This document shows positions 5,389 to 64,000 of a DNA stretch of 64,000 bases, one piece after another; the stretch's first letter is position 1, and the number at the start of each line of letters is the position of its first letter. The notes below the pieces were generated by a model. That model searched no databases, was not told the origin of the DNA, and saw only the letters and a list, made by a program, of their open reading frames with translations. This DNA comes from Sipunculus nudus. Its lineage: Eukaryota > Annelida > Sipuncula > Golfingiida > Sipunculidae. The position numbers and the translations under genes are program-made. Location: positions 66,098,019-66,162,018 of the forward strand of contig CM049306.1 of NCBI GenBank assembly GCA_026874595.1. The letters are read 5' to 3'.

Positions 5389-7828
5389 AACAAGTGACCC
5401 ATGGGTCATGACGCTCAGCTGCCAAGCATGACCTGTGACATCATGCACTGAGATTCACAACTTCCAGTCAAATTAAAAAGAACCAATTAGCCAATTTGTT
5501 GAAAATTTTCTATGACAACAGAAATATATATCACCTATGTCTGGTTAAAACACTGTGAATTGATGGTCTGAGGAAAATGCATGATTATAAGCTATCAGGA
5601 ACTATTCAACAGCTTGCTTGAAACCTGTCAGTCTCAAAAGGAACACCACAAAGGGCAAATATAAGATCAAAATATATAGCAAAAATCAAGGAAATACATG
5701 CAAGAATTATTGAGAAACAGGTGCTTCTGTATGAATTTTTATTCAATACAATCCAACTGTACTGCACTTTTATAAATGATGGTAATATTTATTCAGAAAT
5801 ATTTGACCCAATCCTTTACAAGATTACATAAATATACATCCAACTGCATTCACTTTAACTGTTCTTGAGATAATATGATCAAAAGGAATTTAAAGATGTT
5901 TGCCTGGTGGCCATATTGGACTTCTGACAAGTCTGAAATCAGACAAAAACATTCTCTAAATCGGACCAAACATTAAAGAAAAATTACTGAAACTGCCCTG
6001 AAGAAAGAATTTCTAAGGTGGCTAACTGGCAGACATAATGGATTTCTGACAAGTATGACATTTGATATCCCACATTCTCCAATAAGAGACCAAACTTGGC
6101 GCAAATTATCCAGTAAAAATTGCCCAAAATAATTCAAAAGGCATGTCCAGGCCCTCATATCAGATTTATAGATAAGCAATTGTAAAAAGTGTAAGTCCAA
6201 TATTTTTTATTATCACTCTGCTTTTCAATGGGGTCAGCAGGGTAGGTAAACTGCCAAACCTGAAAGAAAAGAAATGCAGAAAGCATGACTAAGAGCCTTG
6301 AAATAAAACAAAAAGCCATCCTAAATCAAGGTACACATCCACATATTATGAGAAAAAACACTTGCTTTTATATGTGGTGATATATATTAAAATATTCAGA
6401 TATCTAGGAAACTAAGTTTATTGCTAGGATTCCATAAAATAAACTGCAAAATGTTCCCATCATCTTATATATCAGTAGCTTAACCTTAATACTATACTCT
6501 CATAGTCTTATTGCCTGTCTGAAGCATTCTGACAACAGTGTTTTTGTTATGAAGTAACAGGTACTTATCACTGAGCCTTATCACTTAATAGGCTGATACA
6601 AAAGGGAGTCATATGTCACCAGTGTCACTCACAATTACAGCCACACAGGGACATGTACCAGCTGGAGTGGGATGGTTATATATACAAGAAAAATAGAGAT
6701 GGTCTATAAAATAAGTAATTGTGAACATCCCTGACCTATGACCTTGGCCTTTTGCCCATATATCAACTGGATTCTTTCTAAATGATGGGTAACTACTGAC
6801 CACTTAAATCTGGTGTAATTACTTGGCAACCAATGGGTGAATAACTTTGACCTGCAACCTTTAACCTGCTGACCAGCTGACCCCAAAATCAATAAGTTAT
6901 TTATTCAAGCAAAAAGACCCATAAATATGAAGTTTGAGTGAAACTGAGTGATGCATAGATGTGGCATATGTGAAAGACTGAAGGTTTGGGTTGAACAGTT
7001 ACACTTGAAATATGCTCACAAGCATTTAGAACAATTAAATATTGTGACCTTGACCTTTGACTTTTTGACCTCAACATCAATAGGCTTCTTCCCTTATTGG
7101 TAGGTAAGCCATATATGACAGATGGAAGGTACAGATTGAAAAGTTTGCCTGAAAATGACTCCACGCAAGAAGTGGGTGCTGTGAACTTGACCTTTGACCT
7201 CAAAATCAACAGGTCTTTTCCCCTGTTGGCAGAGAAGCGATACCAGTGCTGGAAGGTTTGGAATGAAAAGTCTAGCTTGAAATGTGTCCACTACCTTTTC
7301 AAAGAAGTGGATCCTGTGACCCTGACCTTTGACCTTGTGACCTCAAAATCTATAGGATTCTTCTCCAACTTAGTAGGTGAGCTATATGTGAAAGATCAAA
7401 GAATTGGGATGAAAGGGTTGGCTTAAAATGCATCCACAAGCTTTTCAAAGAAGAGGCTCCTGTGACCTTGACCCTTTGACCTTTTGACCTAAAAAAAATT
7501 ATGGTTCTTCCCCTGTTGGTTGGTGAGCTGTATGTGAAAGATGGAAGGTTTGGGATGAAAATTTTTTCTCAAAGAGTTATTTCTGGGGGGTGCAAACACA
7601 CCCCATTACTTTGAGAATATAGGTCGCAGTGACCTAATTTCAGGTTTGCAAGGAGATCTTTTTATAACCTCTAAGACTGCATAGGGTTCATGGCCCTAGC
7701 CCCTACGGTTACGATTTGTGCCCTGCTAACGGACGGACGGCCGGCCGGCCGGACGGACAGACGGAAGGACGCTGGACAAAGACCCATCGCTATAGCCCAG
7801 CATGACTGAAAGTCAGCTGAGCTAAAAA
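5389..7828 (+). mobile_element. F1-E element, head to 3' terminus
   Basis: The head at 5389-5421 reads AACAAGTGACCCATGGGTCA, then GCTCAGCTG. The 3' end at 7731-7828 holds an ACGG/CCGG microsatellite and closes with GTCAGCTGAGCTAAAAAA. Between them lie about 1.3 kb of unrecognised AT-rich body and a tandem core (6725-7570). Pairing this head with this end is inferred from orientation and from a length (2.4 kb) close to other F1 copies. No coding capacity is seen. Confidence 0.55.
6725..7570 (+). repeat. Tandem core rich in TGACCTTGACCTTTGACCT
   Basis: Units start near 7045, 7182, 7317 and 7463, a spacing of 135-146 bp, with decayed units upstream near 6730 and 6850. Each begins with variants of TGACCTTGACCTTTGACCT followed by conserved text such as CCTCAAAATC and CCCCTGTTGG. 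On the minus strand the motif reads as AGGTCA half-sites in direct-repeat spacing. Short frames across the array are products of the repeat. Confidence 0.75.
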
Positions 7829-7911
7829 ATAATTGAGTACAGTTGTTGTATACTTTTGGTTTAAGGGATTATTTTTAGCAAATTAATGATAGACAAGGAT
7901 GCAGTTGGTTA

Positions 7912-9525
7912 TATTAAGTCATCTGAGCTATAGCCATGGTCCATTGTCCATCGTCTGTCTGTCCATCCGTCTATCCGTTAGACTGGCATGTTTTGAAACC
8001 AATAGGCCTTCAAACCCAAAATCCGGCATACTGTTAAGCCAGCTGTACATGAGGCAACATGTCGCGCGACAAGTCGCAGAACACGCTTGTTCTGCGACAA
8101 GTCGCACAGGGGTAAATCGCACGTTTTCATGGGTTGCGTGACATGTCACAGAAAAAGGAACATGTTTTTTTTACCTGCAACTTGTCGTGTGACATCTGGC
8201 CAAGTGTTGGGAAAAGCCAACAAATAACAGTTTTATATACATAACGATTGATCATGTTATCCATTGATAATGTGACCGTCCATGGTTTCACTGTGTCTGA
8301 TTAGGGTGCTATATATATGTGTGTGTGTTTGACGGTAAACAGGAAACTCAGAAGAAATTGTGTAGCTATCCCAGAATGCCTATGCCTATTTTTCTTATAT
8401 ATCTATATTAATAAAGAGAAACAAGATGAAATATGTCCTAGGCAGAATACATTTTTTTTGTCACTCGCACTTATATTGATAAATTGTGTTATTTTGTTGA
8501 AACCTGGAAGTTATGTTTGGTGCATGTAGCTTTAATAATAGTTTTGCAGGACATGTTGCAGAACATGTCGCTGTGTGTATGGACTGTTCTTGTTGTGCAA
8601 CATGTCGCAGAACTCTGTATTCTACAACATGTCGCCTCGTGTATGGCTGGCTTTAGATGTTCCCAAGATCTCCTACTTAACGAAAATTTGGTCATTGTCA
8701 CTCTGTCCCTTTAAGAAATTAAAGAAAAAAAATAAATTTTCCATTAAAAATCTCTTTTCAAACTTCAGGACTGCATAAATTCAAAACCAATCATCTGTAT
8801 TTTTCGTCATATGAACCACAAATATTCCCTCATATAGTTCCTATGTTCATTTCAGAAATAAGGTGTCAGTATTACTTAATTTATAAAAGTTATTGGCCCA
8901 AACATAATGTACTTTGAAAAAAAATCAGTAAAGATATTTACCACTTAACATAATAACTGTCGAAGCTAGAGACTTTTCTTCAGGTATATAACTGTATTTA
9001 ATCAAGATTAAATTGTACACCCGAAATTGGATCTGAAATTTGTAAACAAGTTATAAGCATTTATATAAAATCAGTACCTTAAATTTTGCTGATCTTTGAC
9101 CATGTCACTTTTTTTTCCTGTAGGTATATTCATTTTTAATTTTATAGCAGGTACACATAATTAATAAAACTGTTAAATACTGAAATTTGAAAATAAATGC
9201 AAAAAAATTAGGCTAGTCATTAAATTTTTTCAGGGGCTCTATTGTATTCATTTGCCATTTCATGCAAGCTCCAGGCTGCCAACTTCCGGTCACAACAGCC
9301 CTGCCAGGGTAACCTTATAAGTGATGCCACAACATTCCAGAATCCCTGCTGTGACAGGTGTACAGTTATTCTTATGTCAACTCCCCTCCCCCCTTCAATC
9401 ATATCAACCATCCATGACCTTATTATTACCTGTTCCTCTCAGACTTTATCTCCATTTGATATTATTTTAGATTTTACCTTCAAGGTCAGCTTCAGCTGAG
9501 CACAGTAACCCATAGGTCCCTTGTT
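7912..9525 (-). mobile_element. F1-A-like element on the minus strand
   Basis: The 3' terminus lies at 7912-7975 (AAGTCATCTGAGCTATAG, then CCGTC-type microsatellite) and the reversed head at 9492-9525 (TCAGCTGAGC ... GGTCCCTTGTT). Next to the head the body is the reverse of the F1-A body found at 15105. One F1 core unit (8655-9200) is present. It is interrupted by the MITE at 8037-8652. Confidence 0.65.
8037..8652. mobile_element. PIF/Harbinger-like MITE with TTA target duplication
   Basis: The element is flanked by TTA at 8034-8036 and 8653-8655. The same F1 core at 22314 reads uninterrupted with one TTA (AATGTTAGATGTCC). Its ends are imperfect inverted repeats: AGCCAGCTGTACATGAGGC on the left and, reverse-complemented, AGCCAGCCATACACGAGGC on the right. 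It carries many CATGTCGC/AAGTCGC motifs, a 12-bp palindrome TGTCGCGCGACA (8060-8071), and a 10-bp-stem hairpin GTCGCAGAAC/GTTCTGCGAC (8073-8098). TTA duplications are typical of PIF/Harbinger. No transposase is encoded. Confidence 0.8.
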
Positions 9526-9589
9526 GACTGTTGTATTTAATAGGGTAGCATGTATATCACAAGTACAAAGAAGTATAAGCATCAATGAA

Positions 9590-11135: not shown

Positions 11136-12167
11136 CTAGAATATCAGCAGAAGCTGACAAAAGCCCTCAGCCAAAAGAACAGTGTTTATAGGTGTAACAG
11201 TAACAAGTACAAAATATCTGTTCTCACATGGATGTATATCTGTACATGTCTCAGTTATAAATTTAAAATGGAGAGGTATGTACCATGATTCTTAACAATC
11301 CACTAAATGCTTCCTGAAAAATAAGCTTCTAAGTTTTATTCTTTAATAAGCTCTGTGACCTTGAAAAGTAGGTCAAGGTCACCCATCTTCGAACTTGACC
11401 GAGATTTTGTCGATATACATCTTCACCAAAGGAATAAAATTCCTATTGTGAATCCTTTTAGAGATATCCCGCTCACAAGGCCAAAGTTGAAAAATCCAAG
11501 AAAAATTCATTAAAAATCAGAAATTGTTGGTGGCACCCCCAAACTTGTGCAGCAGTTACAGACCATCAGTCCCTATGATCATAGTAAGTTTTGTGGAAAT
11601 CCACCCAATGGTTCCTGAGAAATAAGCTTCTAAATGTTTTTTATATAATAAGCTCTAAAACGTAGAAAAATAGGTCAAGGTCACCCATCTTTGAATTTGA
11701 CCGAGATTTTTTCAATATACATCTTCACCGAAAAAATAAAATTCCTACAGTGAATCCTTTTAGAGATATCCCGCTCACAAGCCCAAAGTTGAAAAATCCG
11801 ATAAAAATTCATTAAAAATAAAAAATTGTAGGTGGTGCCACCAAACTTGTGCAGCAGTTACAGACCATCAGTCCCTATGATCATAGTAAGTTTTGTGAAA
11901 ATCCACCAAATGGTTCCTGAGTAATAAGCATCTAAGTGTTTTTCTATAATCAGCTCTAAAATGTAGAAAAATAGGTCAAGGTCACCCATCTTCGAACTTG
12001 ACCGAGATTTTGTCGATATACATCTTTACCGAGGAAATAAAATTCTGACGGTGAATCCTTTTCAAGATATCCCGCTCACAAGGTAAAAGTTACCGGACGC
12101 CGGAAGGACGGACGGACAGCTTGGGTGACGACAATAGCCCATCAGCCTAAGGGCTGAGGGCTAAAAA
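11136..12167 (+). mobile_element. F5 element, complete and nested in F2
   Basis: The head is CTAGAATATCAGCAGAAGC, with hairpin TCAGC-AGAA-GCTGA, then AGCCCTCAGCC at 11162-11172. The 3' end (12097-12167) has GGACGGACGGACAGC and a hairpin within TAGCCCATCAGCC/GGGCTGAGGGCTA, then A residues. The head block AGCCCTCAGCC is the exact reverse complement of the terminal GGCTGAGGGCT, an asymmetric terminal inverted repeat as in Helitron2/Helentron elements. Three tandem core units fill the middle. There is no coding capacity. Confidence 0.75.
11345..12095 (+). repeat. F5 core, about 301-bp tandem units
   Basis: GGTCAAGGTCACCCATCTT recurs at 11371, 11673 and 11974, spacings of 302 and 301 bp. Each unit also carries GATATCCCGCTCACAAG, and two carry a form of the GGTGGYGCCACC motif shared with F2 and F3. 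Confidence 0.85.
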
Positions 12168-12299: not shown

Positions 12300-12300
12300 A

Positions 12301-12671: not shown

Positions 12672-14962
12672 CTAGAATATGGGTAGTCGACAAGCGACTA
12701 TGTGCATCTGCAGAAATCAGAGTGGGACAGGTGAAGTGAGGCATGGATTAAGTGGCAAGGGGAATAGAGTGAGGTGTGTTGCATTTTAGCATGGATGTCT
12801 GCAGCATAAATGTGAATGTGGGTGGTGCCACCTGTCATAAAATCGAGGAAATTGTCCCGGATGTATAAACCTGCAAAATTTCAGGTGGATTAGTCAAACC
12901 ACTGCGGAGATATGAGTGATTTTATCCCAAGGCAGATGAACAGATGGACGGTGTTCATAAGTGGTTGCAGGTGGGGCCACCAGTTTTGCTTATGATGAAG
13001 AGCTATGCGAGATCTATACACAAGCAAAATTTTGGCCCAATCAGTCAAATGGTTCCCAAGATATGAGCTTGGATGTCTGCAGAGTAAACATGAATGTAGG
13101 TGGCGCCACCAGTCATAAAATCAAGAAGGCTGTCCAGGATGTATATACCTGCAAAATTTCAGGTGGATAAGTCAAACCACTTCTGAGATATGAGTGATTT
13201 TATCACAAGGCAGATGAACAGATGGATGCTGTGCATAAGAGGTTGCAGGTGGCACCACCAGTTTTGCCTATGATGAAGAGCTATGTGAGATCTATACCCA
13301 TGCAAACTTTTGGCCCCATCGGTCAAACGGTTCCCCAGATATGTGCTTGGATGTCTGCAGCGTAAACCTGAATCTGGGTGGTGCCACCTGTCATAAAATC
13401 GAGAAAGCTTTCCAGGATGTATAAACCTGCAAAATTTCAGGTGGATATGTCAAACCACTTCTGAGATATGAGTGATTTTATCAGAAGGCAGATGAACAGA
13501 TGGATGCTGTGCATAAGAGGTTGCAGGTGGGGCCACCGGTTTTGCCTATGATGAAGAGCTATGTGAGATCTATACACATGCAAACTTTTGGCCCAATCAG
13601 TCAAACGGTTCCCGAGATATGTGCTTGGATGTCTGCAGCGTTAACGTGAATCTGGGTGGTGCCACTTTTCATAAAATTGAGAAAGCTTTCCAGGATGTAT
13701 AAACCTGCAAAATTTCAGGTGGTTATTTCAAACCACTTCTGAGATATGAGTGATTTTATCACAAGGCAGATGAACAGATGGATGCTGTGCATAAGAGGTT
13801 GCAGGTGGCACCACCGGTTTTGCCTATGATGAAGAGCTATGTGAGATCTATACACATGCAAACTTTTGGCCCAATCGGTCTAACGGTTCCCGAGATAAGT
13901 GCTTGGATGTCTGCAGCGTAAACGTGAATCTGGGTGGTGCCACCTGTCATAAAATCGAGAAAGCCTTCCAGGATGTATGATCCTGCAAAATTTCAGGTGG
14001 ATATGTCAAAGCACTTCTGAGATATGAGTAATTTTATCACAAGGCAGATGAACAGATGGATGCTGTGGATAAGAGGTTGCGGGTGGCACCACGGGTTTTG
14101 ACTAGGATGAGGAGCTATGTGAGATCTATACACATGAAAACTTTTGGCCCAATCGGTCAAACTGTTCCCGAGATATGTGCTTGGATGTCTGCAGCGTAAA
14201 CGTGAATCTGGGTGGTGCCACCTGTCATAAAATCAAGAAAGCTTTCCAGGACGTATGAACCTGCAAAATTTCAGGTGGATATGTCAAACCACTGCTGAGA
14301 TATGAGTGATTTTAAAACAAAGCAGATGAACAGATGGATGCTGTGCATAAGAGGTTGCAGGTGGTGCCACCAGTTTTGCCTATGATGAAAAGCTATGTGA
14401 GATCTATACCCATGCAAAAATTTGGCCCAATCGGTCAAACAGTTACCAAGATATGAGCTTGGATGTCTGCAGCGTAAGCGTGAATGAAGGTGGCCCCACC
14501 TGTCATAAAATCCAGAAAGCTATCAAGGATGAATACATTCAAAATTTCAGGTGGATAAGTCCATTCACTGCAGAGATATGAGTGATTTTATCCCCAGGCA
14601 GATGAACAGTTGGACGCTGTGCAGAAATGGTTGCAGGTGGTGCCACCATTTTTTATGTATGTTATAAAGCTATCCAAGGGCTACATTAGTGCAAATTTTT
14701 TTTCCTGATTGGTCAAACGAGTTTGAAGATATGTGGATTAATATGTCAAAACACACGCACAGATGGAGGCACTGGAAAGAGGAAAGGTCAGAGGTCAACG
14801 CAAAATATTTTGGCACCAGTTCACATGTGACCCCATAATTGTGTAAAGTTTCGAAAAAATCTGTCCAGTTGTCTCAGAGTTCTATTCCGGAAATGAACGT
14901 GGCAGCGGCGCTAAACCCGGTAAAAACATAGTATCTGCAAAACTTAGTTTTGGCGCATACAA
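12672..14962 (+). mobile_element. F3 element, complete
   Basis: It starts CTAGAATATGGGTAGTCGAC with hairpin stem TAGTCG/CGACTA and ends with the hairpin-forming GTATCTGCAAAAC ... GTTTTGGCGCATACAA. The right flank begins with T and the left flank ends with AA. A tandem 278-bp core occupies most of it, followed by a 3' unique segment including GGTCAGAGGTCAACG and TTCACATGTGACC. No transposase or Rep frame is present. Confidence 0.8.
12963..14640 (+). repeat. F3 core, 278-bp tandem array, six units
   Basis: GGTTGCAGGT or GGTTGCGGGT begins units at 12963, 13241, 13519, 13797, 14075 and 14353, all 278 bp apart, and again at 14629 after 276 bp. Each unit holds two forms of the palindrome GGTGGYGCCACC, plus TGGATGTCTGCAG and CCTGCAAAATTTCAGGTGG. 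Apparent open frames of 60-70 codons repeat with the same period and do not resemble a protein family. Confidence 0.9.
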
Positions 14963-15070
14963 TAATAGGTTATCCCTACCCAAGAGTAGCACTAGCACAA
15001 ATAATATAAGTAAATATATTTTATCAAACCGTCATTAATAACAAATTCTGATTCAAATATAATTTAATTT

Positions 15071-16480
15071 AACAAGGGACCCATGGGTCACTGTGCTCAG
15101 CTGAAGTTGACCTTGAAGGTAAAAATCTAAAATAATATCAAATGGAGATAAAGTGTGAGAGGAAGAGGTAATAAAGGCCATGGTTGGTTTATATGATTGG
15201 TTTGTATTGATGAGCAAGAAATTGTTGCAAAAAATATTTTGTGACCTGACCATGTGTTTCCTAATGTTGAAACTAAAGCATGTGAGCAGTTTGTGAACAA
15301 ATGATCTGTACTATTACCATGATCATTAGTTGGTTTTTCGATTAACTGTTGACATTTCAGTAGTTTACACATTTGTTCAATTGCATCTATTTTTTTGTAT
15401 AATATATATTATTAAATATATATGTATTTTTTTTATGAAATGTATACAGTTGAAATATAGCTAATAAACAACATAAACAGGGCAAACAAAACCTGATCTC
15501 AAATTCTGCTGAGGCAGGAAAATAATGAACAAATGTTTGTATTAAATTCTCATTTTTTTATCACATCAATTATTTTCTAATTTAAGTTTATATTTCTAAA
15601 CATTTCCAATTTAACATATATATCTGAATATAAAAGTTGATTCATAATTCTCAATTGCATCATCATAAATCTCAATCTTGTCAGATAACACCACATCATG
15701 CATACAAATGTTTATTTATTTTTTACCATAGAAATATATCTTTTAAATCTGCAAAACAATAAATATCTAAAAATAATACTTGATTTAGATTTCACAATTT
15801 TTAATTGTGTCTTTATTTATCCATTATAATGTGCTTCATATTTTATAATAATTTAAGCATACTGATGGGTTCAATTATATTTGTTAAAATCATTTAAAAG
15901 AAAATTGATTTCTTTAAAAATGCTACATTACACAACATTGCATCTTCTTGATTACACCTTGAATTATTTTTTCAAGGAAAGTTTTTGCATATCGCAGTGG
16001 AAACAGCATTACAATTAAGGAGATACAGTGAAAACAATAACAATTAGTGTATAACACTTGGTGGGTTGGGTTTGCGGGGGGGGGGGGGGGGGGAGGGGGG
16101 TGATTGGGGTGGTGATATTAGAATAACTGTACACCTGTCACAGCAGGGGATCTCCCCCAGTGACTGAAACAAATCAGAAACCCTGGCATAGCTGACTTTC
16201 AGTGACCTGGAGTGGGACCCTGCATCTGTAATCAAAGCAAGTGACTACAGAAAAAAAATCAATAACTAGCTTAATTTTCAAGCTTTTATTTTCAAATTTC
16301 AGATTTAGACAAACTAAATATTTATGTTTACATGCTGTGAAAATTAAATCAATGGTTCCTACAGGAAAAAAACGTGCCATGGTCAAAGTTGGGCAAAATT
16401 TAAGGTAGTGATTTTTTTTTATGCTAATAACTTAAAAAATTTACAAAATTCAGATCTAATTTTCGGTAAACAAATGAATC
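15071..16480 (+). mobile_element. F1-A element, copy 1, 3'-truncated
   Basis: The head is CAAGGGACCCATGGGTCAC then GCTCAGCTGA (15095-15104). The body runs through TTGACCTTGAAGGTAAAAA, TTGTATTGATGAGCAAG and CACCACATCATGCATAC to a poly-G tract (18 G, then A, then 6 G, at 16076-16100). The F1 core then begins (GTGCCATGGTCAAAGTTGGG near 16374) and the match is lost at about 16480. Copies 2 (17923) and 3 (62539) are very similar. Confidence 0.8.
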
Positions 16481-25877: not shown

Positions 25878-25924
<47 letters not shown>

Positions 25925-25978
25925 AGAAAGAGAAAAAGCAGAGGAGAGAGAGAGAGAAAGAGAGAGAGAAAGAGAGGC
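25878..25978. repeat. (GA)n polypurine microsatellite in F1-C
   Basis: About 19 uninterrupted GA dinucleotides are followed by imperfect GAGA/GAAA runs ending before GGCTCTCTGG. The same place in the F1-C copy at 49806 carries a longer tract. Serine/leucine-rich minus-strand frames and arginine/glutamate-rich plus-strand frames here are artefacts. Confidence 0.9.
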
Positions 25979-40050: not shown

Positions 40051-40074
40051 AGCCCTGAGGGGCATGACACACAT

Positions 40075-40312
40075 GAGGTGATCACATGATATTCATGAGT
40101 TGATCACATGCTACCTATGAGTTGATCACATAGTGCCCATGAGGTGTTCACATGTCACCCATGAGGTGATCACATGCCTTGTGCTTGGCTGCACTGATTG
40201 AACTCTTGACCTATATCGGCTGCACTGAATGAACTCTTGATCTGTTGAGGTGATCACATTGTGCCCATGAGGTATTCACATGTCACCCATGAGGGGATCA
40301 CATGCTTTGTGC
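40075..40312. repeat. 22-bp minisatellite in two blocks
   Basis: GAGGTG/GAGTTG recurs at 40075, 40097, 40119, 40141 and 40163, then at 40247, 40269 and 40291, always 22 bp apart. The blocks are separated by about 65 bp of TGGCTGCACTGA text. It is the same unit as at 1484-1576. Confidence 0.85.
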
Positions 40313-41263
40313 TTGGCTGCACTGAATGAACTTTTGATCTATTGCCAAATCTGAAACAGTTGGCAGTTTTTTAACCTATGTAAATATACAGACACAATCT
40401 TGGCCTGTTGGCAAATCTGTTTACACATACTGAAAGACTTTGGCTAAAATGCTTTTTTTTTCAAGCTGAAATATTCATAAACTTTTTATCAAAATATCTA
40501 GAAAAATAAAAGATTCAGTTCTTTCATTGTTAAAGGTCCAATAATTCTGCCAAAAATCATTCAAGTAAACTTGAACAAAGGCCACCTAAGAATAATTTTG
40601 GTGCCATGTAAACAGAAGTTATAACTGAAACAATAATTTTGTTGAAGAACAGTTTTGCAGTCCTCCGTTTGAGTTAGACATAATAATGGCCATAAGACCA
40701 ACTTAAGTTTTTCTGATATTATTGAAAGAACCATGTCCTACGATAATTGTTTTGAAAAATTGAACAATTCAACTTGACAGTTTCATCATAAACATTTTTA
40801 GTTGAAAGAGGCTAAAATTATAAGGTTTTTGCCCATAAAAAAACAGGTCAATGTAGGTGGCACATCAAAATCTGCAACTTCAGATATGAGTCATGTAACC
40901 AACATTTGCACAATACTTGGTAATGCTAGCTTCTGTCATTTCTGAGATAACTATGTCAGTATGCTTACTTGGCCAAATGACCGTTCAAATGCAAACCATT
41001 TGAACAAACTTGAGAGTACTTGCCTCTGGAATCATTTCTGTAAAATATTGAACAATTTGGCTGGACTGTTTACAAGAAGACTTTTAAAGGTTTTTCAGCT
41101 TTTCCCCTATAAAATCTAAGTAAATGCAGATAGCAAAAAACATAAGTTGAATCCCACAACATTTGATATGTGACAGATAACTGCATAAAATCTGGGGATT
41201 GTAGCTCCTGCAATTCCTGAGAAATTATGGGTTGATATACAGATGACCAATGACCCCCGTACA
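40313..41263 (+). mobile_element. F2 tail and core, uninterrupted reference copy
   Basis: It is collinear with 10648-11135 plus 12168-12299 and then with 32440-32730. It serves as the empty-site reference for the F5 insertion (near 40725-40733) and for the TA insertion at 12300 (near 40917). It is cut at 41264 by an F1 head. Confidence 0.7.
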
Positions 41264-44200: not shown

Positions 44201-44382
44201 CCAATTTTTGGCATGGTAGGAGATTATGGGGACATCTAACTGAATGCCGAAATTCAGATTCGTAGCTCAAATGGTGTCGAAACGTGCCAGTCTTACGGAC
44301 GGACAGACAGACAGATGGACGGACGACGGACAATGGACCATGACTATAGCTCAGATGACTTATAGTCAGCTGAGCTAAAAAT
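41264..44382 (+). mobile_element. F1-C element, copy 2, complete
   Basis: Head CAAGGGACCCATGGGTCACG then GCTCAGCTGA. The C body includes GTGGTTTATTTTTTATTTAT (uninterrupted here), a divergent middle at about 41830-42690, the CATCCACACTTTCACAGC block and two core units. A GACGGACAGACAGACAG-type tract precedes the terminal TCAGCTGAGCTAAAAA, followed by T. From about 42700 to the end it parallels 26503-28190 closely. Confidence 0.8.
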
Positions 44383-45992
44383 GGTCAATGCAGGTGGCGC
44401 CAACAATACCTGAATTTCACATATGACTCATGTGACCAACAGTGGCATAAAATTTGAGACTGTCATTTTAGTTTTCTTTATTTGGACAGATGACTAGGTT
44501 CAACTTCCTGTAATTCGGCCAAAATTCACATAACTTGAACCATTTGAACAAACTTGAGAGAGATGGTATAAAAGATTATTTCTGTGAAATATTGAACAAA
44601 TTGGCTCGACCATTTCAGAGGAGAAGATTTTTAAAGGTTTTCAGCTTTTTCTCTAAAAAATCTAAGAAAATGCAGATTTTTTTTCAGATCATGAGATGGC
44701 TAATTTTTTGCATTAAATTTCATGATGCTAGCTCCAGTCATTTTCGAAATAGTATGGGTTAACGTATACCTGTGATTGTAAACATTGCCTGGCATGAGGA
44801 ATATCTAAAATCATAAATCTACATTTTTTTAAGTTTTTAAAAAACATTCTTGTCAATATTAACCAAAGATAACCTGAAATCTCAATGTCTGGAGGCATGA
44901 TGTAACGGATGCTGGTAAACTGGTTCTAGGCTAGATGTATCTGCTTCACACAGCTAACATATATGGTAAAATGACTCAATTAAATCTTTATTATTCAGCC
45001 AAAATTTATTCTTTGGAACCATAAAAGACAATTATTATAAGAATAATTCAGGGGATTATTCTTGTAAAATATTAAACAAATTGGCCTCAGTGGCGTCAGT
45101 CAAAAAACGTTTTAGTTTATAACTCATATGGAAAAATAAAGCAAAATGGCTAAGTTAAGCTTCCAATAACTCAGCCAAAAATCACTGAACCAAAACAATT
45201 TGAACAAACTTGAATTATCAACATCTAAGGATAATTAATGTGTGGGATCTAAGAATTTGGTCCAGTGGTTTTTGAGAAGAAGATCTTTGTAGCAACTGAG
45301 CTAAAATTGGCTGTTATGGCATATGACTAAATTCAGCTTCCCATAACTCAGCCAAAAGTCACTGAACTGACACCATTTGAACAAACTTCAGAAGGCACTA
45401 CCCTAGGAACATTTCTGTGCGATATAAAACAATTTGGCCAAATGGTTTCAGAGAAGAAGTATTTTGTAGATGTCAGTATGATACCGGCACTGATGACCCC
45501 CGTTCAAAAAAGGCCGATGCAGGTGGCGCCACCAATACCTGAATTTCAGACATGACTCATATGACCAACATTGGCATAAAATTTGGTAATGACAGCTCCA
45601 GCCGTTACTAAGATTGTAATTTTAGTATGCTTTTTTGGACAGATGACTAAGTTCAACTAGCTGTAACTCGGCCAAAAATCACCGAACTTAAACCATTCGA
45701 ACAAAATTGAGAAAGATTGTTCCAGGGATCCTTTCTGTGAAATATTGGACAATTTGGCTGAACAGTTTGGGAGAAGAAGATTTTTTAGTTTTTTTAGCTT
45801 TTTATCTATAAAATTTAAGAAAATGCAGTTAGCCAAAAAATAAGCAGTTCCGATAGAGTTTTTTAGATGAATAATTATTTGCAGAAAATTACTTGATGCT
45901 AACTCTTGCCGTTTTCAAAATAGTATGGTTTACAGAAAACGGACGACGGCCGACGCCACACCATCGCATAAGCTCACAGGTTCGCTAAAAAA
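44383..45992 (+). mobile_element. F2 core with 3' terminus
   Basis: Reiterated core units (CCAATAACTCAGCCAAAA, CCCATAACTCAGCCAAAA, GGTGGCGCCACCAATACC at 45522) are followed by GACGACGGCCGACGCCACAC and the terminus CATAAGCTCACAGG then TTCGCTAAAAAA. The last block is the reverse complement of GCGAACCTGTG in F2 heads. No head is seen. Confidence 0.7.
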
Positions 45993-46304: not shown

Positions 46305-48096
46305 AACAAGGCCTACAGGCCTAATGCGAACCTGTGCATAGTTTTGGAGTATGAATGGAGGTTTATTTTTAAAATTTGATATTGATCCTTTTAAGTCCTG
46401 CATATCTACCTTAGTCATTATGATTTAAGCAAAATGGATATTTTGGACCTGCAAGTTTGAGACTAGGACATTTAAAACTAGAATATGGGTAGTCGACAAG
46501 CGACTATGTGTATCCGCAGAAATCAGAGAATCAAACGGTTCCTGAGATATGAGCTTGGATGTCTGCAGAGTAAACAAATGTACGTGGCGCCACCTGTCAT
46601 CAAATCGAGAAAGCTATCCAGGATGTATAAACCTGCAAAATTTCAGGCGGATAAGTCAAACCACTTCTGAGATAGGAGTTATTTTATCCCAAGGCAGATG
46701 AACAGATGGATGCTGTGCATAAGTGGTTGCAGGTGGCGCCACCAGTTTTGCCTATGATGAAGAGCTATGTGAGATCTATACTTGTGCAAAATTTTGGCCC
46801 AATCAGTCAAACAGTTCCCGAGATATGAGCTTGGATGTCTGCAGAGTAAAAGTGAATGTAGGTGGTGCCACCTGTCATAAAATTGAGAAAGCTGTCCAGG
46901 ATGAATAAACCTGCAAAATTTCAGGTGGATAAGTCAAACCACTGCTGAGATATAAGTGATTTTACCCCAAGGCAGATTAACAGATGGACGCTGTGCAGAA
47001 ATGGTTGTAAGTGGCACCACCATTTTTAGTGTATGTTATAAAGCTATCAAAGGGCTACATTTGTGCAAAATTTTTAGCCTGATCGGTCAAACGGTTCCCG
47101 AGATATGTGGGTTTCTGTGTGGCAACAGACGCACAAATGGACGCTGGTCAGCCAGGAAAGGTCATAGGTCAACCAAAAATAAGGGCGCAGCAGTTCACAT
47201 GTGACCTGATGATAAACCTAATTGGCTAAAAATGCAAACCAAGTCTTTTCAAACAGTTGAAAGATATAGTTCCAATAATCTGGGAATTCTGCATCTAAAC
47301 ATTGCGTCTAGACACCCCCCCAAGAGCAAGGTCAGTTGCCATGGTGATGTCTGGATCCCACCTGTTTGTACTGAGTGACCTCTTGACTTGGCTGCTGAAA
47401 CTCAGCACATTGTCAAATCTGTTTTCAAATACAGAAAGCCTTTTTCAATTGGCTACAATGTTTTTTTAAAACTGTATTTACCCAATCTATTATAATAAAA
47501 CTGGCAGAAGCCTACCATAGAATAATTCTTGTAAAGTTTAAACAAATCAGCTTAACAGTTTCATCATAAATCAGTGTATAAGCTAGAAGAGTTTAAAATT
47601 ACATTTTCACTTGTAAAAAAAGATCAATGTAGGTGGCTCCACTAATACCTCATTTTCAGATATGACATATGTGACAAACATTGGTAAAAAATTTGGTGAT
47701 TATAGCTCTAGCCGTTTCTGAGATTTTAATTTTAGTCTGCTTTTTTGGACAGGTGACTAAGTTCAACCTCCTGTAACTCGGCCAAAAATCTCAGAGAGAG
47801 ATTGTTCCAGGGATCATTTCTGTGAAATATTGGACAAATTGGCTAGACAGTTTCAGAACAGAAGTTTTTTAAAGGTTTTTAAGCTTTTACTCTATAAAAT
47901 CTAAATTAATGCAGATACCCAATAATAAGCTCCAGGGCACCAAGTTTCACATGTGACTAATTCTTACATGTAATTTGGAGCTGCTAGCTCTGATGGTTTC
48001 TGACTTACAGCCATGGATGGCAGAAGCCAGCACTGGACGGCGGACGGCTGACGGACGACACTGCACCATCCAATAAGCTCACAGGTTCGCTAAAAA
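46305..48096 (+). mobile_element. F2 element, head to 3' terminus, carrying nested F3
   Basis: The head at 46305-46337 (CAAGGCCTACAGGCCTAATG, GCGAACCTGTG) and the terminus at 48066-48096 (AATAAGCTCACAGG, TTCGCTAAAAA) are in the same orientation with core units between them. A 3'-truncated F3 occupies 46478-47203 at the same position as the F3 in the F2 at 12498. Pairing of the ends is inferred. Confidence 0.6.
46478..47203 (+). mobile_element. F3 element, 3'-truncated, nested in F2
   Basis: It starts CTAGAATATGGGTAGTCGAC after TTTAAAA, then holds two core units (GGTTGCAGGTGGCGCC at about 46727) and the post-core text GCAGTTCACATGTGACC. The terminal GTATCCGC hairpin is absent. Confidence 0.75.
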
Positions 48097-49803: not shown

Positions 49804-49867
<64 letters not shown>

Positions 49868-49903
49868 AAGAAAGATGGAGAGAGAAAGAGAAAAAGCAGA
49901 GGG

Positions 49904-49949
<46 letters not shown>

Positions 49950-56308: not shown

Positions 56309-59300
56309 AACAAGGGACCTATGGGTCACGGCGCTCAGCTGATATATATGATAAAAAATATGATTTAGAAATGAGGCACATGCTGGTTTTATATGGTAAT
56401 AAAAATAAGCTGTATTATGAGTTGTTGTTGTTTAGCTTATGTATGATTTTGATAGTACCTTTGGAGACAGGAAAGAGGATTAATTTCATTTATTTCATTA
56501 ACAAATGGAGTGGGATTGTCACACAGATTTTGACTTGGCCATATAACTAATATAAGCAGAACATATAATATAAGAGTTTAACTATTTATTAGAAAAATTA
56601 CAAATATTGTCCTAAATATAATTTTTATTAAAAATAATAAGAGAATAGTATGATTTTTTCAAATAAAATATGACTGAAATGATTATTAAAATAATATTAA
56701 AGAATATATTCATGAATGCATTCATTAATACATTTTGAAAATATTTGCACTGGTATTCATATACTTTCATTTTTACCTGAATTCCCATTCTTATGAAAGA
56801 AATTTTATAATGGAGTACATATTCATATTCGTGTTTAAATACAATTGCAAAGTATTCGCACCATGTCTGGTATTTATTCAGTTTTCACCAAACAATGATG
56901 TTGAGAATCCAGAATATACAAAATTCACACATTTAAATAATGATCATAAGTACCTGGTTTTATGGCTTTTATTTATATTAAAAAAAAAATGTAATATATT
57001 TATTTTGGACTAATTTCACATCAATGTACACACTAGACACAGTAGGAATCTAGATTAATATTATCAACTGCATCTTTGTCTATCATTAATTTCCTTCATA
57101 TGATCCCTAATGATTAGTAATGAATAATATGATTTACTTTTTTATCATTAAAATTAAACTGAAAAATACCATAGGTGACTGCATGGTGTTATTTGGAATA
57201 CATGACATTCTATCCATCGATACAAGATTCTTATATCATCGGTAACTGCAAGTTATTTTCCTGTTATTATCAACTAACAAATTCCTTTTCTATTTTTCTT
57301 TAATTTGTTATTAAAAACCAATAAAAATTTATTAATTTATTGTTTATTGTTATGTTGTTGGTTAAAACTACAAGATGAGTTGGGTTGGACACCTAGATCA
57401 ACTGTGGCTGGCCATTATATAATAAGCTGCCTGGACGCCCCAGTTTATGTCTTGCCTCAAGCATGCATAATTTGCTGAAAGTTCAACCAGGTCAACATAC
57501 AGGTGACTCAAGAGGTGCTACAGAGAGCCAAGGTCTGACATGGTCTCATAAAAACATTAATAAAAGCTACAATTTTTGGCCAATTTCTTTCAGCTTTTCA
57601 AACTAAAAAGCTGAAATCTTTATGTGTGCATGATATGAAAATTATATCAACAGTACTCACAGGAAACAGACATGCCATGGTCAAAGTTGGGCAAAATTTA
57701 AGGCACTAATTTTATATTTATACTAATAACTTATACAATTTGAAAAATTCAGAACTAATTATGGGTATTCAATTGAATCCTGATTAAATAATGTTACATC
57801 CCTGACAAAAAATCTCTAGCTTCAGCAATCCTCTTGTTAAGGGAGTAAATATATTTCTTGATTTTTTAAAAAGTGCATTATGTTTGGGCCCATAACTTAA
57901 AACAACTAGAATACGGGTAGTCGACAAGCGACTACGCGTATCCGCCTAAATCAGAGTGGAACGGGTGAAGTGAGGCATGGATTGAGTAGCAAGGGGAAAT
58001 AGAGTGTTGCATATTAGCATGGATGTCTGCAGCCAAATTGTGTATGTAGGTTGCCCCCCTACCACAAAATCCAGAAAGCCTTCCAAGTTGTATACATATG
58101 CAAAATTTAAGGCAGATAAGTCAAACCACTACATGTATATGAGTGATTTTAGCCCGTGGCAGACAAACAGATGGACGCAGAGCAAAAATGGCTGCAGGTG
58201 ACGCCACCAGTTTTGCGTATGATAAAGAGCTATGTGAGAACTATACACATGCAAAACTTTGGCCCAATCAGTCAAACGGTTCCCCAGATATGAGCTTGGA
58301 TGTCTGCTGCATAAACTAGAATGCAGGTGGCGCCACCTGTCATAAAATCAAGAGAGCTGTCGGGGATGTATAAACCTGCAAAATTTTAGGCAGATATGTC
58401 AAACCACTGCCGAGATATGCGTGATTTTATCCCATGGCAGACAAACAGATGGGAGCTGTGCAAAAATGGCTGCAGGTGACGCCACCAGTTTTGCATATGA
58501 TAAAGAGCTATGTGAGATCTATACACATGCAAAATTTTGGCCAAATCGGTCAAACGGTTCCTGAGATATGAGCTTAGATGTCTGCAGCATAAACGTGAAT
58601 GTAGGTGGCGCCACCTGTCATAAAATCAGTAAAGCTATCCAGGATGTATACGCATTCCGAATTTCAGGTGAAGTAGTCAAGTCACTGCAGAGATATGAGT
58701 GATTTTAACCCAAGGCAGACGAACAGATGGACACTGTGCAAACATGGTTGCAGGGTAGCGCCACCATTTTTGGTGTATGTTATAAAGCTCTCCAAGGGCT
58801 ACATTTGTGCAAAAGAATTTTCCTGATCCGTCAAACGGTTCCCGAGATATGAGCTTGGATGTCTGCAGCATAAACGTGAATGTAGGTGGCGCCACCTGTC
58901 ATAAAATCAGAAAAACTATCCAGGATGTATACGCATGCCCAATTTCAGGTTAATTAGTCAAGTCACTGCAGAGATATGAGTGATTTTAACCCAAGGCAGA
59001 CAAACAGATGGACACTGTGCAAACATGGTTGCAGGTGGCGCCACCATTTTTGGTGTATGTTATAAAGCTCTCCAAGGGCTACATTTGTGCAAAAGAATTT
59101 TCCTGATCGGTCAAACGGTTCCCGAGATATGAGCTTGGATGTCTGGTGCGTAAACGTGAATGTAGGTGGCGCCACCTGTCATAAAATCAGAAAAGCTATC
59201 CAGGATGTTTACGCATGCCCAATTTCAGGTGAATTAGTCAAGTCACTGCAGAGATATGAGTGATTTTAACCCAAGGCAGACGAACAGATGGACACTGTGC

Positions 59301-60660
59301 AAACATGGTTGCAGGTGGCGCCACCATTTTTGGTGTATGTTATAAAGCTCTCCAAGGGCTACATTTGTGCAAAAAAATTTTCCTGATCGGTCAAACGGTT
59401 CCCAAGATATGTGGGTTTATGTGTGGAAACAGACGCACAAACGGACGCAGAGCGCAGAGGAAAGGTCAGAGGTCAAAACAAAATCGGGGCGCAGCGGTTC
59501 ACATGTGACCCGAACATAATCCCCGGTTTCGTAAAAATCCGCCCAGCCGTTACGGAGGAGTTCTCCGGACACCTACGCCGCGGCGGCAGCGGCGTGCAGC
59601 TGAAAACATAGTATCCGCAAAACTCTGTTTTGGCGGATACAATTACGCAATACTGACATCATTTCTGGCATGTGCATAGAGAATATATAGAAAAATATGT
59701 ATATTATATATGATTAAAGTCAGATCAGTGGTTTTTATATTAGGCTGTCTTGAAGTGTAACAATGAGTTTTTCATTAATATCTCGAAGGTATTAGGTCCT
59801 AGTGATCAAATTCTTGGCATGGTAGGGGATTTTTGAGACATCTAATTGTATGCCAAATTTTAGGAACTGAGAGCTGAAGTTGGGGAGCTGAGCACTTGCA
59901 AACTGCATGACACTAGTTTGATGTAAACAATATGTTACATGGTGCTTGAAAGCTTGAATAAAATCTACAGTTTTTGATCAACTGGTTTCAAATTTTTGGT
60001 GTTTACAGACAAAATGCTAAAAAAAACATGCTGTGAAAATTAAATCCACAGTACTTACAGGAAAAAAACCTGCCATGGTCAAAGTTGGGCAAAATTTAAG
60101 GTACCAATTTTTTATTTTTGTTAATATTTTAAAAAATTTAAAAGATTTTGATCTAATTTTGGGTATACAATTTAATTTTGATTAATTAAAGTTATATTAC
60201 TGGAAAAAAAGTTTAAAGCTTTAACATATTTTGTGTTAAGTGATCAAATATCTTTCCTGATTTTTTACACAATGCATTATGTTTGGGCCCATAACTTTTT
60301 AAATTTTTATAATACAGACATAATTTCTGGCATGTACATAGGAACTATATAGAGGAATAACTATGGTAAATATGAGAAAAAACAGATGTGTGGTTTTGAT
60401 ATTAGGCAGTCCTGAAGTGTAAAAATAGGTTTTTAATAAAAAATTGAGGTTTTTCTTTGATTTCTCAAAGGAACGAAGTCGCAAAGACCCAGTTTTCAGC
60501 TTGGTAGGAGATCTTGGGGACATCTAACATTATGCCGAATTTTGGATTGCTAGGTCTTATGGTTTCAAAACGTGCCACATCTACGGACAAACGGACGGAC
60601 GGACGACGGACAATGGACCACGACTATAGCTCAGATGACTTATAGTCAGCTGAGCTAAAA
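56309..60660 (+). mobile_element. F1-B element, copy 4, complete, split by F3
   Basis: Head at 56309-56341, B body, first core unit to 57905 (CCCATAACTTAAAACAA), then F3. The core resumes at 59643 (TTACGCAATACTGACATC), a second unit follows, then GACGGACGGACGACGG and TCAGCTGAGCTAAAA. Without the insertion it is about 2.6 kb, matching copies 2 and 3. Confidence 0.85.
57906..59642 (+). mobile_element. F3 element, complete, clean insertion
   Basis: Start CTAGAATACGGGTAGTCGAC, with perfect 7-bp stem GTAGTCG/CGACTAC, then GTATCCGCC (57939-57947). Core units carry GCTGCAG or GTTGCAG at 58191, 58469, 58747, 59028 and 59308 (278-281 bp apart). The end is GTATCCGCAAAAC ... GTTTTGGCGGATACAA. The uninterrupted F1-B at 30640-30650 reads AAAACAATTACGC, so the host was split as ACAA/TTAC without a clear target duplication. 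Confidence 0.9.
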
Positions 60661-60665
60661 ACCCA

Positions 60666-62070
60666 AACAAGATGACCAGAGGTCACGCTCTTGCCGGGAA
60701 TGGAAATAATACAGACAGATAGACAGAGAGAGCATGTAGAAACAGTCATATGAATGAGCAACGTTGTGGGGGCAGAGATTTGGAGAGACTTTCAGTTTTA
60801 TCATGCCAAGCTGCCTATAGGCTACATAATGACCGAAACCAGACGTCTGTAGCTTAAACGGTGATCAAATTATAAGCATATCTGTGAAATCTCATTATTT
60901 CTCGTTTGACCATAAACCGAGCGAAATTTGACGAAACTTGCAATTGAATGACTTAGAACCAAGGGGAAGCAGCCTTATGCAAAAAACCAGACCCTTGAAA
61001 CATAAATATTAACCGAGATAAAAGCCTAAAACTGCATATTTTCAGATAGTCAAGTTTAACCCAAAAATTTGGTAACGGCAGCACAAAGCTACATGTGCGG
61101 AAGAATAAGCCAATGTTCCTAGTTTAAGATACAACAATAAAAATTGTGCCATGTTTAAAATTATTTTAGATATTGCAGAAAAATGATATGTTACAGTGTT
61201 TCCGGTACCACGCCCCCTGGTGGCTATTTCCAAAAAATGAAAAATTGATTTCGAGATATTTATAAATAACACAAAATATATCAATTTCAAAGGCATTGTT
61301 AAAAAAATGCAACCTGTAGGTCATATTTAATGAAATCTCGGAAACTCTCGTTTTACGAGAAATGGTGTGAGATTTTACGAGACTTTCACTTGTATGATAA
61401 ATAGCTTATTTAGTACTATCTGGTGCAAAAAACTAGACCTCTCTAGCATTAAAACTGACAAAGTTAGGAAAATTGGTCCATTGATTTTCGATTTTCATCA
61501 CTTTTACCCAAAAATACGTAACCATGGTGACAACAAATTTGACACAAAATATATCAATTTCAAAGCCATTGTTAAAAAAATGCAACCTGTAGGTCATATT
61601 TAATAAAATCTCGAAGACTCTCGTTTGACGAGAAATGGTGCAAGATTTGGCGAGACTTTCAGTTTTATCATGTCAAGCTGCCTATAAGCTACATAATGAC
61701 CAAAACCAGACGTCTGTAGCTTAAAAATTGACAAAGATAGAAAATGTAGCATGACTATTTTCAAATTATCAAGATTTAACCCAAAAATGCGTAACCATGG
61801 TAACAGCAGATTTGAGTCAGGTACCCATCATATAAAAGGCCATGGAATGACGGATAAAACAAGCTATGGTTTAAGTGGCTACGACCATTTGTACAAAGTT
61901 ATGGAGCAAAAACTGTATTGCATACTTTCCATGACCTTGACCTTCACAATGATGCGATGTTAACCAAAAACAACAGGGTTCCAGGACTCTGGGTTGTCAA
62001 TCATCCCTGTAAGTTTCAAGTCGATTGCTGCAAAACTGTGGCCAGGAGAGTAGAGACAAACAGACCAAAA
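60666..62070 (+). mobile_element. F4 element, first head and body
   Basis: Head CAAGATGACCAGAGGTCAC with hairpin TGACC-AGA-GGTCA, then GCTCTTGCCGGG. The body repeats segments such as GAGACTTTCAGTTTTATCATG (60787 and 61653, with a variant at 61379), ACCAGACGTCTGTAGCTTAA (60839, 61706) and ATGCAACCTGTAGGTCATAT (61307, 61579). No matching 3' terminus is present before the second F4 head, so its extent is uncertain. No protein is encoded. Confidence 0.5.
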
Positions 62071-62538
62071 AACTAGACGACCATTGGTCGAGAGCTTGCC
62101 GGACTGGAATGACAGACAGACGGACAAACTGTCGGTTTTCTATCAATTGAATGACTTTCAGAGCGAGTGCTGGAAAGTTTTGCCTGTTGAATGGCATATA
62201 TCACACAAAAGAACATGAAAGCAGACATAGCTCAAAACAGACAGATATACTGACACACCTGACATAACAGACTACCAGAAAAAAGTTGGGAACGTAAAAA
62301 GAAGCAAAATGAGCTATAGTTTTAGTAGGTAGAGTTTATAGTGTCGGAGGTATGGCCAATATATGGTAGGGGCCATATCCCAAACATTAAAAAATTCTTT
62401 TGAGACTTTAATGTAAGAAATAAGATGTTGTTCCAGTTCCAAAGGATTCCCGTAAAACTGTGTCCTGAAAATTGCAAGAAGCAAGGTCCAGCAAGCAGGC
62501 GAAATTTAGGATCACTGACAAACAGACAGACATACTCA
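62071..62538 (+). mobile_element. F4 variant, second head
   Basis: The head CTAGACGACCATTGGTCG, with perfect stem CGACC/GGTCG, is followed by GAGCTTGCCGGACTGGAATG and a CAGACAGACGGAC run. The remaining body is unassigned and is cut by the F1-A head at 62539. Confidence 0.45.
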
Positions 62539-64000
62539 AACAAGGGACCTATGGGTCACTGTGCTCAGCTGACGTTAACCTTGAAGGTAAAAATCTAAAA
62601 TAATATCTAATGGAGATAAAGTGTAAGAGGAAGAGGTAATAAAGGCCATGGTTGGTTTATATGATTGGTTTGTATTGATGAGCAAGAAATTATTGCAAAA
62701 ATATTTTGTGACCTGACCATGTGTTTCCTAATGTTGAAACTAAAGCATGTGAGCAGTTTGTGAACAAATGATCTGTACTATTACCATGATCATTAGTTGG
62801 TTTTTTGATTAACTGTTGACATTTCAGTAGTTTACACATTTGTTCAATTGAATCTATTTTTTTGCATAATATATATTTTTAATTATATATGTATTTTTTA
62901 TGAAATGTATACAGCTGAAATATAGCTATTTAACAACATAAAACAGGGCAAACAAAACCTGATCTCAAATTCTGCTGAGGCAGGAAAATAATGAACAAAT
63001 GTTTGTATTAAATCCTGATTTTTTTATCACATCAATTATTTTCTAATTTAAGTTTATATTTCTATACATTTCCAATTTAACATATATATCTGAATATAAA
63101 AGTTGATTCATAATTCTCAATTGCATCATCATAAATCTCAATCTTGTCAGATAACACCACATCATGCATACAAATGTTATTTATTTTTTACCACAAAAAT
63201 ATATCTTTTAAATCTGCAAAACAATAAATATCTAAAAATAATACTTGATTTAGATTTCAAAATTTTTAATTGTGTCTTTATTTATCCAGAATGTGCTTGA
63301 TATTTTATAATAATTTAAGCATACTGATGGGTTCATTTATATTTGTTAAAATCATTTAAAAGAAAATTGATTTCTTTAAAAATGCTACATTACACAACAT
63401 TGCATCTTCTGGATTGCACCTTGAATTATTTTTTCAAGGAAAGTTTTTGCATATCGGAGTGGAAACAGCATTACAATTAAGGAGATACAGTGAAAACAAT
63501 AACAATTACTGCATAACACTTGGTGGGTTGGGTTTGCGGGGGGGGGGGGGGGGGGGGGGGGGGGAGATGATTGGGGTGGTGATATGAGAATAACTGTACA
63601 CCTGTCACAGCAGGGGTTCTCCCCCAGTGACGGTAACAAATCAGAAACCCTGGCATAGCTGACTTCCAGTGACCTGGAGTGGGACCCTGCATCTGTAATC
63701 AAAGCAAGTCACTACAGAAAAAAAAATCAATAACTAGCTTAATTTTCAAGCTTTTATTTTCAAATTTCAGATTTAGACAAACTAAATATTTATGTTTACA
63801 TGCTGTAAAAATTAAATCAATGGTGCTTACAGGAAAAAAATGTGCCATGGTCAAAGTTGGGCAAAATTTAAGGTACTGATTTTTTTTTATGCTAATAACT
63901 TAAAAAATATACAAAATTCAGATCTAATTTTGGGTAAACAATTGAATCTTAATTAAACATAGTTATATACTTGCGAAAATAGACTCTAGTTTCAAAATTT
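62539..64000 (+). mobile_element. F1-A element, copy 3, continues past the window
   Basis: Head CAAGGGACCTATGGGTCACT then GCTCAGCTGA. The body is nearly identical to copies at 15071 and 17923, including a poly-G tract of 27 G (63538-63564), followed by the F1 core up to the end of the window. The 3' terminus is not reached. Confidence 0.8.

Follow-up and report, generated by a model that had tools for sequence, protein, structure and literature searches.

The question raised by a 64,000-nucleotide stretch of the Sipunculus nudus genome (assembly GCA_026874595.1, contig CM049306.1, positions 66,098,019 to 66,162,018; hereafter the window, with positions counted from its first letter) is what kind of element could give five sequence-unrelated families the same order of motifs at their ends. 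The initial annotation described heads of five types, F1 to F5, each reading AA, CWAG, a palindrome and a 9-11 bp block, and all five are present in the window. The F1 head, AACAAGGGACCYATGGGTC...GCTCAGCTGA with variants, occurs 12 times, ten on the plus strand and two on the minus strand; these heads belong to five body types that have only the terminal ~34 bp in common and whose outer flanks differ. The palindrome, described as perfect or near-perfect, is imperfect in eight of the 12 F1 heads because the sequence there is GACCTATGGGTC or similar. That the block recurs inverted at the opposite end of the element holds for F1, F2, F3 and F5; no such end of F4 was found in the window, and genomic copies of F4 do carry the inverted block (GCTTGCCGGAAAT / ATTTCCGGCAAGC). 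We are highly confident that the window holds non-autonomous Helentrons (HINEs) from several families, with many copies nested in one another. The shared grammar was correctly observed but read in the wrong direction, and the architecture is already known.

When the head is reverse-complemented it becomes an inverted repeat, a palindrome, CTTG or CTAG, and then TT. The tail, in the same direction, runs from T-rich DNA into TAGC or TTGT, the inverted repeat, the complement of the repeat and often a GTCC-rich stretch. In all five families the subterminal 3' inverted repeat lies directly before the palindrome, the repeat pair of F4 being seen only in genomic copies, and the 5' hairpin folds as DNA at -9.8 (F1), -10.9 (F3), -13.3 (F4, genomic copies) and -12.0 kcal/mol (F5). 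The GTCC-rich stretch follows the 5' ends of F1 and F5 and is weaker in F2, and central tandem repeats of 278-302 bp are found in F3 and F5. Helitron2 elements have a 5' asymmetric terminal inverted repeat (ATIR) near the 5' end that folds with downstream bases and a 3' ATIR immediately before the 3' hairpin, with compensatory palindrome changes noted in two related elements (Bao & Jurka 2013, PMC3627910); oyster HINEs have the matching order, a subterminal inverted repeat (subTIR) plus complementary inverted repeat in the left flank, and a subTIR followed by a palindrome in the right flank (PMC7492417). The heads are the known 3' ends of Helitron2, Helentron and HINE elements, and the tails their 5' ends, on the opposite strand. 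The match of both end structures to these accounts bears out the assignment to Helentron/HINE-like families, and the palindrome beside the block, taken at first for an undescribed 5' layout, is on the other strand the published 3' end.

The idea that AACWAG plus a short palindrome is merely frequent in AT-rich DNA, from which fitting cases were selected, draws some strength from a loose test. Here a palindrome follows 26 of the 78 AACWAG sites in the window, compared with 1,349 of 5,747 control sites belonging to 148 permuted hexamers (33% v 23%). Because this excess is only small, the pattern alone cannot identify elements, and a generic search for AACWAG plus palindrome was rejected as an element finder, 23% of controls matching loosely. 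With a strict palindrome (arms of at least 5 with at least 2 G/C, loop of at most 5, within 9 nt) the counts were 12 of 78 versus 265 of 5,747 (Fisher p = 2.7e-4), and with an inverted 10-mer followed by an A-run in addition, 3 of 78 versus 14 of 5,747 (p = 1.4e-3). Ten of the 12 strict matches are recognised ends, the other two (8091 on the minus strand and 58314) not being recognised as such. Genome-wide, mismatch-free pattern matches to the 3' ends number 6,625 for the TGACCC type of F1, 3,625 for F2, 4,657 for F3 (pattern with six N), 927 for F4 and 1,123 for F5, while each reversed pattern, used as a control, gave 0; the ends are therefore real repeats. TT directly follows 6,220 of the 6,625 TGACCC-type F1 ends (94%), and a TT or T-rich target was noted for the other families in the copies seen. 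With hundreds to thousands of genomic matches per end, and with flanks that diverge at the predicted boundary, chance is refuted for the recognised ends and retains practically no probability.

A search for autonomous Helentrons sharing these ends, as proposed initially, was successful for F1 elsewhere in the same genome. The 1.43 Gb searched (153 contigs) hold at least 143 Helitron Rep matches, a lower bound in that 150 of 195 candidates were scored. A Helentron copy on C17 has a frame of 2,342 aa with Rep (PF14214, E 5e-27) and PIF1 (7e-23) matches and with HUH, two-tyrosine, Walker A and GDFN motifs; downstream on its coding strand lies TCAGCTGAGC ATCATGACCCATGGGTCACTTG, followed by TT, so that the coding strand of the F1 transposase agrees with the orientation of the F1 ends given above. 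Copies on C5 and C10 are ~95-98% identical to it in long aligned blocks, with shorter open frames around Rep (1,124 and 676 aa). All three begin with TTTT and then TAGCTCAGCTGACTGAAAGTCA[A/T]CTGAGC, their unrelated 5' flanks diverging between TTTT and TAGC, and on the 3' side the C5 and C10 copies align to C17 up to a point within a few bases past CTTG. The flanks of F1 copies diverge at the predicted limits. In the window, the 3' end at 5391-5421 shares its type (TGACCC...CTTG) with these three copies. Rep, a PIF1-type helicase and a C-terminal AP-like endonuclease between the ends, as in Helentrons, are found for F1 through C17, the endonuclease match being weak; ends in common with an autonomous Helentron, together with absence of a transposase, as in HINEs, are found at both ends for F1 only. 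In the frames L006:1303-8328 (-) and L007:905-8164 (+) the N-terminal 27-210 aa match Pfam 'Herpes_teg_N' (E ~1e-11), which is no more than the name of a family. The C17 copy contains a nested F3 element, and F3 ends are found at the corresponding place in the C5 and C10 copies. A second 5'-end-like copy lies inside the 5' end, ~0.7 kb in on C17 and ~1.1 kb in on C5 and C10 (L006+L010, L019+L022, L020+L021), as if the 5' end of another element had been captured.

To record how the ends are oriented relative to Rep, 45 Rep loci were covered by 46 stretches placed at the locus or downstream of it, L052 being an extension of L032; four stretches measure 10 kb and take in the frame, and the others measure 3.5-4 kb. 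In 18 of the 45 loci an F1 3' end is found on the coding strand; L029, one of these, has an F1 3' end on the opposite strand as well and is the only locus to do so. For F2 3' ends the counts are three loci (coding strand) and none (other strand), F3 3' ends occur at one locus, where they belong to the nested element of L006, and no F4 or F5 3' ends were found in these stretches. Past a distant, long-branch Rep (L017, coding strand, ~2.1 kb in) a similar end, GTGTCG-TTC-CGACAC-AT-CTAG followed by TT, was seen at this one locus.

Three forms of the F1 palindrome occur at Rep loci: F1a, GACCCATGGGTC-CCTTG/CCTAG (L008, L041); F1b, TGACCCATGGGTCA-CTTG (L006, L013, L014, L031, L040); and F1c, TGGCCCATGGGCCA-CTAG/CTTG (L025-L030, L033, L053, L057, L060). 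As exceptions, one palindrome base is altered in L014, L029 and L060, and in L033 and L041, whose own ends are followed by TA and TG instead of TT, a further end of TGACCC type lies downstream. Among the alignments listed, those of related 3' flanks within the F1a, F1b and F1c groups end within a few bases past CTTG or CTAG. In a Rep tree of 19 rows, in which only some members of each variant group are placed, the Reps of L008 and L041 group together (support 100/99), as do those of L006, L013 and L031 together with L007 (84/83) and those of L025, L026, L028, L030 and L060 together with the L058 Rep (93/91). The F1 palindrome variants thus go with Rep subclade. Genome-wide, with the rest of the end held fixed, the palindrome arms read A..T in 6,220 copies, G..C in 774, G..T in 64 and A..C in 36, so that both arms are changed in 774 copies and one arm in 100, where independence would give 96 double changes. 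Since copies are not independent, this means that the two-arm variant spread unlike the one-arm variants, not that 774 separate events took place. On the coding strand of L014, at ~2596-2674, two F1-type 3' ends follow directly one after the other, the first F1b-like (one base altered) and the second F1a-like.

F4 ends accompany a distant Rep clade: the clade-A (F1) and clade-B (F4) Reps are 31% identical over most of the frame. The clade-B frame of L005 carries DUF6570, OTU, Rep, PIF1 and endonuclease (43.2 bits, above cut-off) matches, the OTU protease match lying in the N-terminal region, where L006 and L007 have Herpes_teg_N. The F4-type hairpin end CTTGCCGAAATCGAAGATTTCCGGCAAGC and close variants of it lie downstream of the clade-B frame at all four loci extended that far (8 copies) and upstream of it at both loci extended 11.5 kb, one at each; no hairpin end was found upstream of a third locus, extended 5 kb. 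The F4 3' ends (heads) share a reading direction in v12 and b12. As ten of ten hairpin ends point the same way, the clade-B frame would be reversed relative to the canonical order, provided that the ends belong to the element; the limits of clade-B elements are provisional because the sequence past the hairpin end is common to b18 and b5. The F4 DNA of the window (60668..62070) is related to DNA downstream of clade-B frames, up to 84% over 779 bp.

This direction of the clade-B frame, with ten F4-type hairpin ends in agreement, is the point in favour of the reading in the initial annotation, by which a palindrome obligatorily precedes the block in a new kind of 5' layout. We consider that layout very improbable: the order on the other strand is the 3' end of PMC7492417 and PMC3627910, the F1 parents code in the direction opposite to it, and elements with reversed frames have been described in PMC3627910, PMC4067079 and PMC5148889.

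F4 ends also cluster. Of the first 100 listed, 36 pairs of neighbours are no more than 5 kb apart, each pair sharing one strand, where 0.3 would be expected; the first 100 F3 ends listed give 2 neighbour pairs within that distance, with 2.8 expected. The same-strand F4 clusters (for example C1:64761022-64777670, C1:105182948-105207167, and 60666 and 62071 in the window) have a spacing of 1.7-4.8 kb, with as many as 8 ends in a run within the first 100 listed, and F3 is without such clusters. The F4 clusters are what head-to-tail arrays would be expected to give; reversed frames, and tandem arrays arising from bypassed termination in Helitrons, are described in PMC4067079.

The partners of the other families are less clear-cut. 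The Reps that have F2 3' ends nearby come from three clades; in two of the three F2 cases the Rep is of another clade. At L056 and L058 the F2 3' ends were rejected as ends of autonomous elements; they probably belong to neighbouring HINEs, because the Reps there fall in clade B and in the F1c group. L070 (L070/L052), which is distinct enough, is the lone candidate for an F2 parent. A protein search with L070 gave two more close places on C7, one at 71% with stops and one as a split match at 86 and 78%. Its 3' flank (L070/L052) has F3-type repeats and an F3-type 5' end ahead of the F2-type 3' end. The window at 32731-34327 and L052+L032 have the same body (F3-type 5' end, repeats; blocks ~90-92% identical) with an F1-type and an F2-type 3' end, respectively, which could reflect 3' ends being exchanged or a nested insertion combined with a deletion. 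One F1-type end variant was counted 17 times, which bears on that variant and not on end exchange. No F3 or F5 ends were found at four further Rep loci, L075-L078.

A single trans-acting Rep that reads the shared structure and mobilises all five families would account for the common architecture, for an F3-repeat body whose 3' end is of F1 type in the window and of F2 type in L052, as if 3' ends were exchangeable, and for the want of an F3 or F5 parent among the 45 Rep loci. Preference for structure over sequence is not favoured, however, because F1 and F4 ends accompany Rep clades as distant as stated above, and within F1 the palindrome variant tracks the Rep subclade, though for F2, F3 and F5 it keeps some probability; we regard a single Rep as improbable, though less so than the new 5' layout. 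The other initial proposal, family-specific Reps matched to each hairpin, stands for F1 and probably for F4: the Reps look family-specific in the former and probably in the latter.

Several points weigh against the elements being HINEs with family-specific Helentron parents. F2 has the repeat and no convincing 5' hairpin, two variants folding at -1.2 and -2.1 kcal/mol. For the C17 frame the endonuclease match is weak and scores below the Pfam cut-off (20.5 v 24.5 bits). Sign tests on the orientation counts (F1, 18 v 1, p = 7.6e-5; F1 + F2, 21 v 1, p = 1.1e-5) overstate independence because the Rep copies are related to one another, and at least one of the 18 coding-strand F1 ends (L023) belongs to a neighbouring HINE with an unrelated body and is not the Rep element's own. 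Orientation by coding strand fails for some families because the F4/clade-B frame is reversed. The two Rep groups with support of 84/83 and 93/91 fall under the starred level of the tree tool, the F2 parent candidate L070 rests on one locus, and neither F3 nor F5 has a parent among the 45 Rep loci.

DINE-1 and the bivalve Pearl elements were formerly filed as cut-and-paste miniature inverted-repeat elements (MITEs), and short inverted repeats close to both ends, a lack of coding capacity and nesting would suit such elements here also. Of the two repeats, however, only one sits at the extreme end; its partner is set ~20-30 bp in from the other end, on the inner side of the palindrome. What the coding parent encodes is Rep/helicase and not a DDE transposase, and the probability of MITEs is accordingly negligible. 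Canonical Helitron1 elements have 5' TC, 3' CTRR, insertion between A and T, and no 5' inverted repeat. The elements described here have 5' TAGC or TTGT, 3' CTTG or CTAG (of which only CTAG fits CTRR), a TT target and inverted repeats.

Closer likenesses are found in four published accounts. Helitron2 (PMC3627910) shares the 5' ATIR fold, the 3' ATIR beside the 3' hairpin, compensatory changes, some reversed RepHel frames and T-run insertion; it differs in being described in PMC4067079 without endonuclease, where the parents here have an endonuclease match, and F2 here is without a clear 5' hairpin. Helentron, HINE and DINE-1 elements (Thomas et al. 2014, PMC4067079) share the Rep/helicase/endonuclease parent, subterminal repeats and a 3' palindrome common to short derivatives, TT targets and, in Helentron-Da-40A.1, a reversed frame, whereas the repeat and palindrome sequences here are those of different families. 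Cg_HINE of the Pacific oyster (PMC7492417) has a subTIR, complementary inverted repeat and GTCY-type microsatellite in the left flank, satellite-like central repeats, a right-flank subTIR followed by a palindrome, modules combined between elements and oligo-T insertion sites; autonomous Helentrons could not be tied to HINEs in that account, whereas autonomous elements with F1 ends are present here. Fusarium FoHeli elements (PMC5148889) likewise have asymmetric terminal inverted repeats with hairpins, subgroups with differing ends and some reversed frames, but the account gives no endonuclease domain in the fungal elements, and other end motifs.

The features placed in the window are collected below. 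The window also holds long (GA)n tracts and 27 consecutive G (25880-25976, 49808-49955, 63538-63564).

Table 1. Elements, ends and heads in the window, and the C17 Helentron copy. Strands of elements and 3' ends are given in the element's own direction, opposite to that of the heads.
Feature	Position	Strand	Details
F1 HINE	5391..7824	-	3' end 5391-5421 (inverted repeat, TGACCCATGGGTCA, CTTG, then TT); 5' end TAGCTCAGCTGA 7813-7824; putative pairing with nearest compatible end
F5 HINE	11136..12163	-	3' end TCAGC/GCTGA palindrome + CTAG, then TT, 11136-11172; 5' hairpin end, GTCC-rich, ~12140-12163; 302-bp repeats inside
F3 HINE	12672..14966	-	3' end 12672-12711; 278-bp central repeats 12792-14653; mutated 5' hairpin end ~14966; ~170 bp inside F2 3' end (~12498)
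F2 HINE	39179..45987	-	3' end 39179-39208; 5' end 45975-45987; nested F1 inside; putative pairing
F1 HINE, nested in F2 element	41266..44377	-	3' end 41266-41297; 5' end 44366-44377
F2 HINE	46307..48092	-	3' end 46307-46336; 5' end 48080-48092; holds F3 3' end 46478-46517
F1 HINE	56311..60657	-	3' end 56311-56342; 5' end 60646-60657; nested F3 inside
F3 HINE, nested in F1 element	57906..59642	-	3' end GTAGTCG/CGACTAC, then CTAG and TT, 57906-57946; 5' hairpin end TTGTATCCGCC...GCGGATAC at ~59610-59642
F4 3' end + F4-type body	60668..62070	-	3' end 60668-60697; no 5' hairpin end here
Second F4 3' end	62073..62102	-	same orientation as first F4 end, 1.4 kb off
F1 3' end	62541..62572	-	right edge of the range initially annotated; body extends rightward
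F1 3' end	15073..15104	-	more F1 3' ends of same orientation begin at 17925, 19099, 21945, 29073, 32733
F1 3' end, opposite orientation	9492..9523	+	another at ~24794
F1 heads	5389, 15071, 17923, 19097, 21943, 29071, 32731, 41264, 56309, 62539	+	
F1 heads	~9525, ~24794	-	
F1 heads with imperfect palindrome	17923, 19097, 29071, 32731, 56309, 62539, 9525 (-), 24794 (-)		GACCTATGGGTC or similar
F2 heads	39177, 46305		mutated one ~12498
F3 heads	12670, 46476, 57904		
F4 heads	60666, 62071		
F5 head	11134		
C17 Helentron copy	C17:35625479-35640362		14,884 bp; nested F3 element of 859 bp

Direct observations are the architecture, the high copy number, the TT that F1 targets, the presence of autonomous Helentrons with F1 ends in the genome, and the palindrome variants that follow Rep subclade. 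In its own direction an element runs from a T-rich target through TAGC or TTGT, a 9-13 bp inverted repeat (forming a hairpin with the next bases in F1, F3, F4 and F5), often a GTCC-rich stretch and satellite-like central repeats to the inverted repeat copy, the palindrome, CTWG and TT. A two-tyrosine HUH Rep-helicase supplied in trans would nick the 5' end and peel one strand off by rolling-circle replication, stopping at the 3' repeat, palindrome and CTWG, and the freed strand would be inserted between two adjacent T in T-rich DNA. F1 would be served by Helentron clade A, and F4 probably by clade B, whose frame is opposite to its ends. It is tentatively suggested, as a possibility we hold somewhat less probable than its opposite, that the palindrome is a family address, rewritten by paired arm changes as Rep clades split while the inverted repeat stays fixed, by which HINE copies could be assigned to their Rep through one or two bases; bodies may also exchange 3' ends between families.

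Since this layout is a published hallmark, there is no case for treating it further as a new architecture. What is new are further Helentron/HINE families, with a link from HINE to autonomous element for F1. The known architecture gains autonomous Helentrons whose ends are those of a HINE family, found in a genome where satellite-carrying HINEs abound, together with genome-scale counts in which palindrome arms change jointly. The correspondence between Rep subclade and palindrome makes recognition of the 3' end by Rep directly testable.

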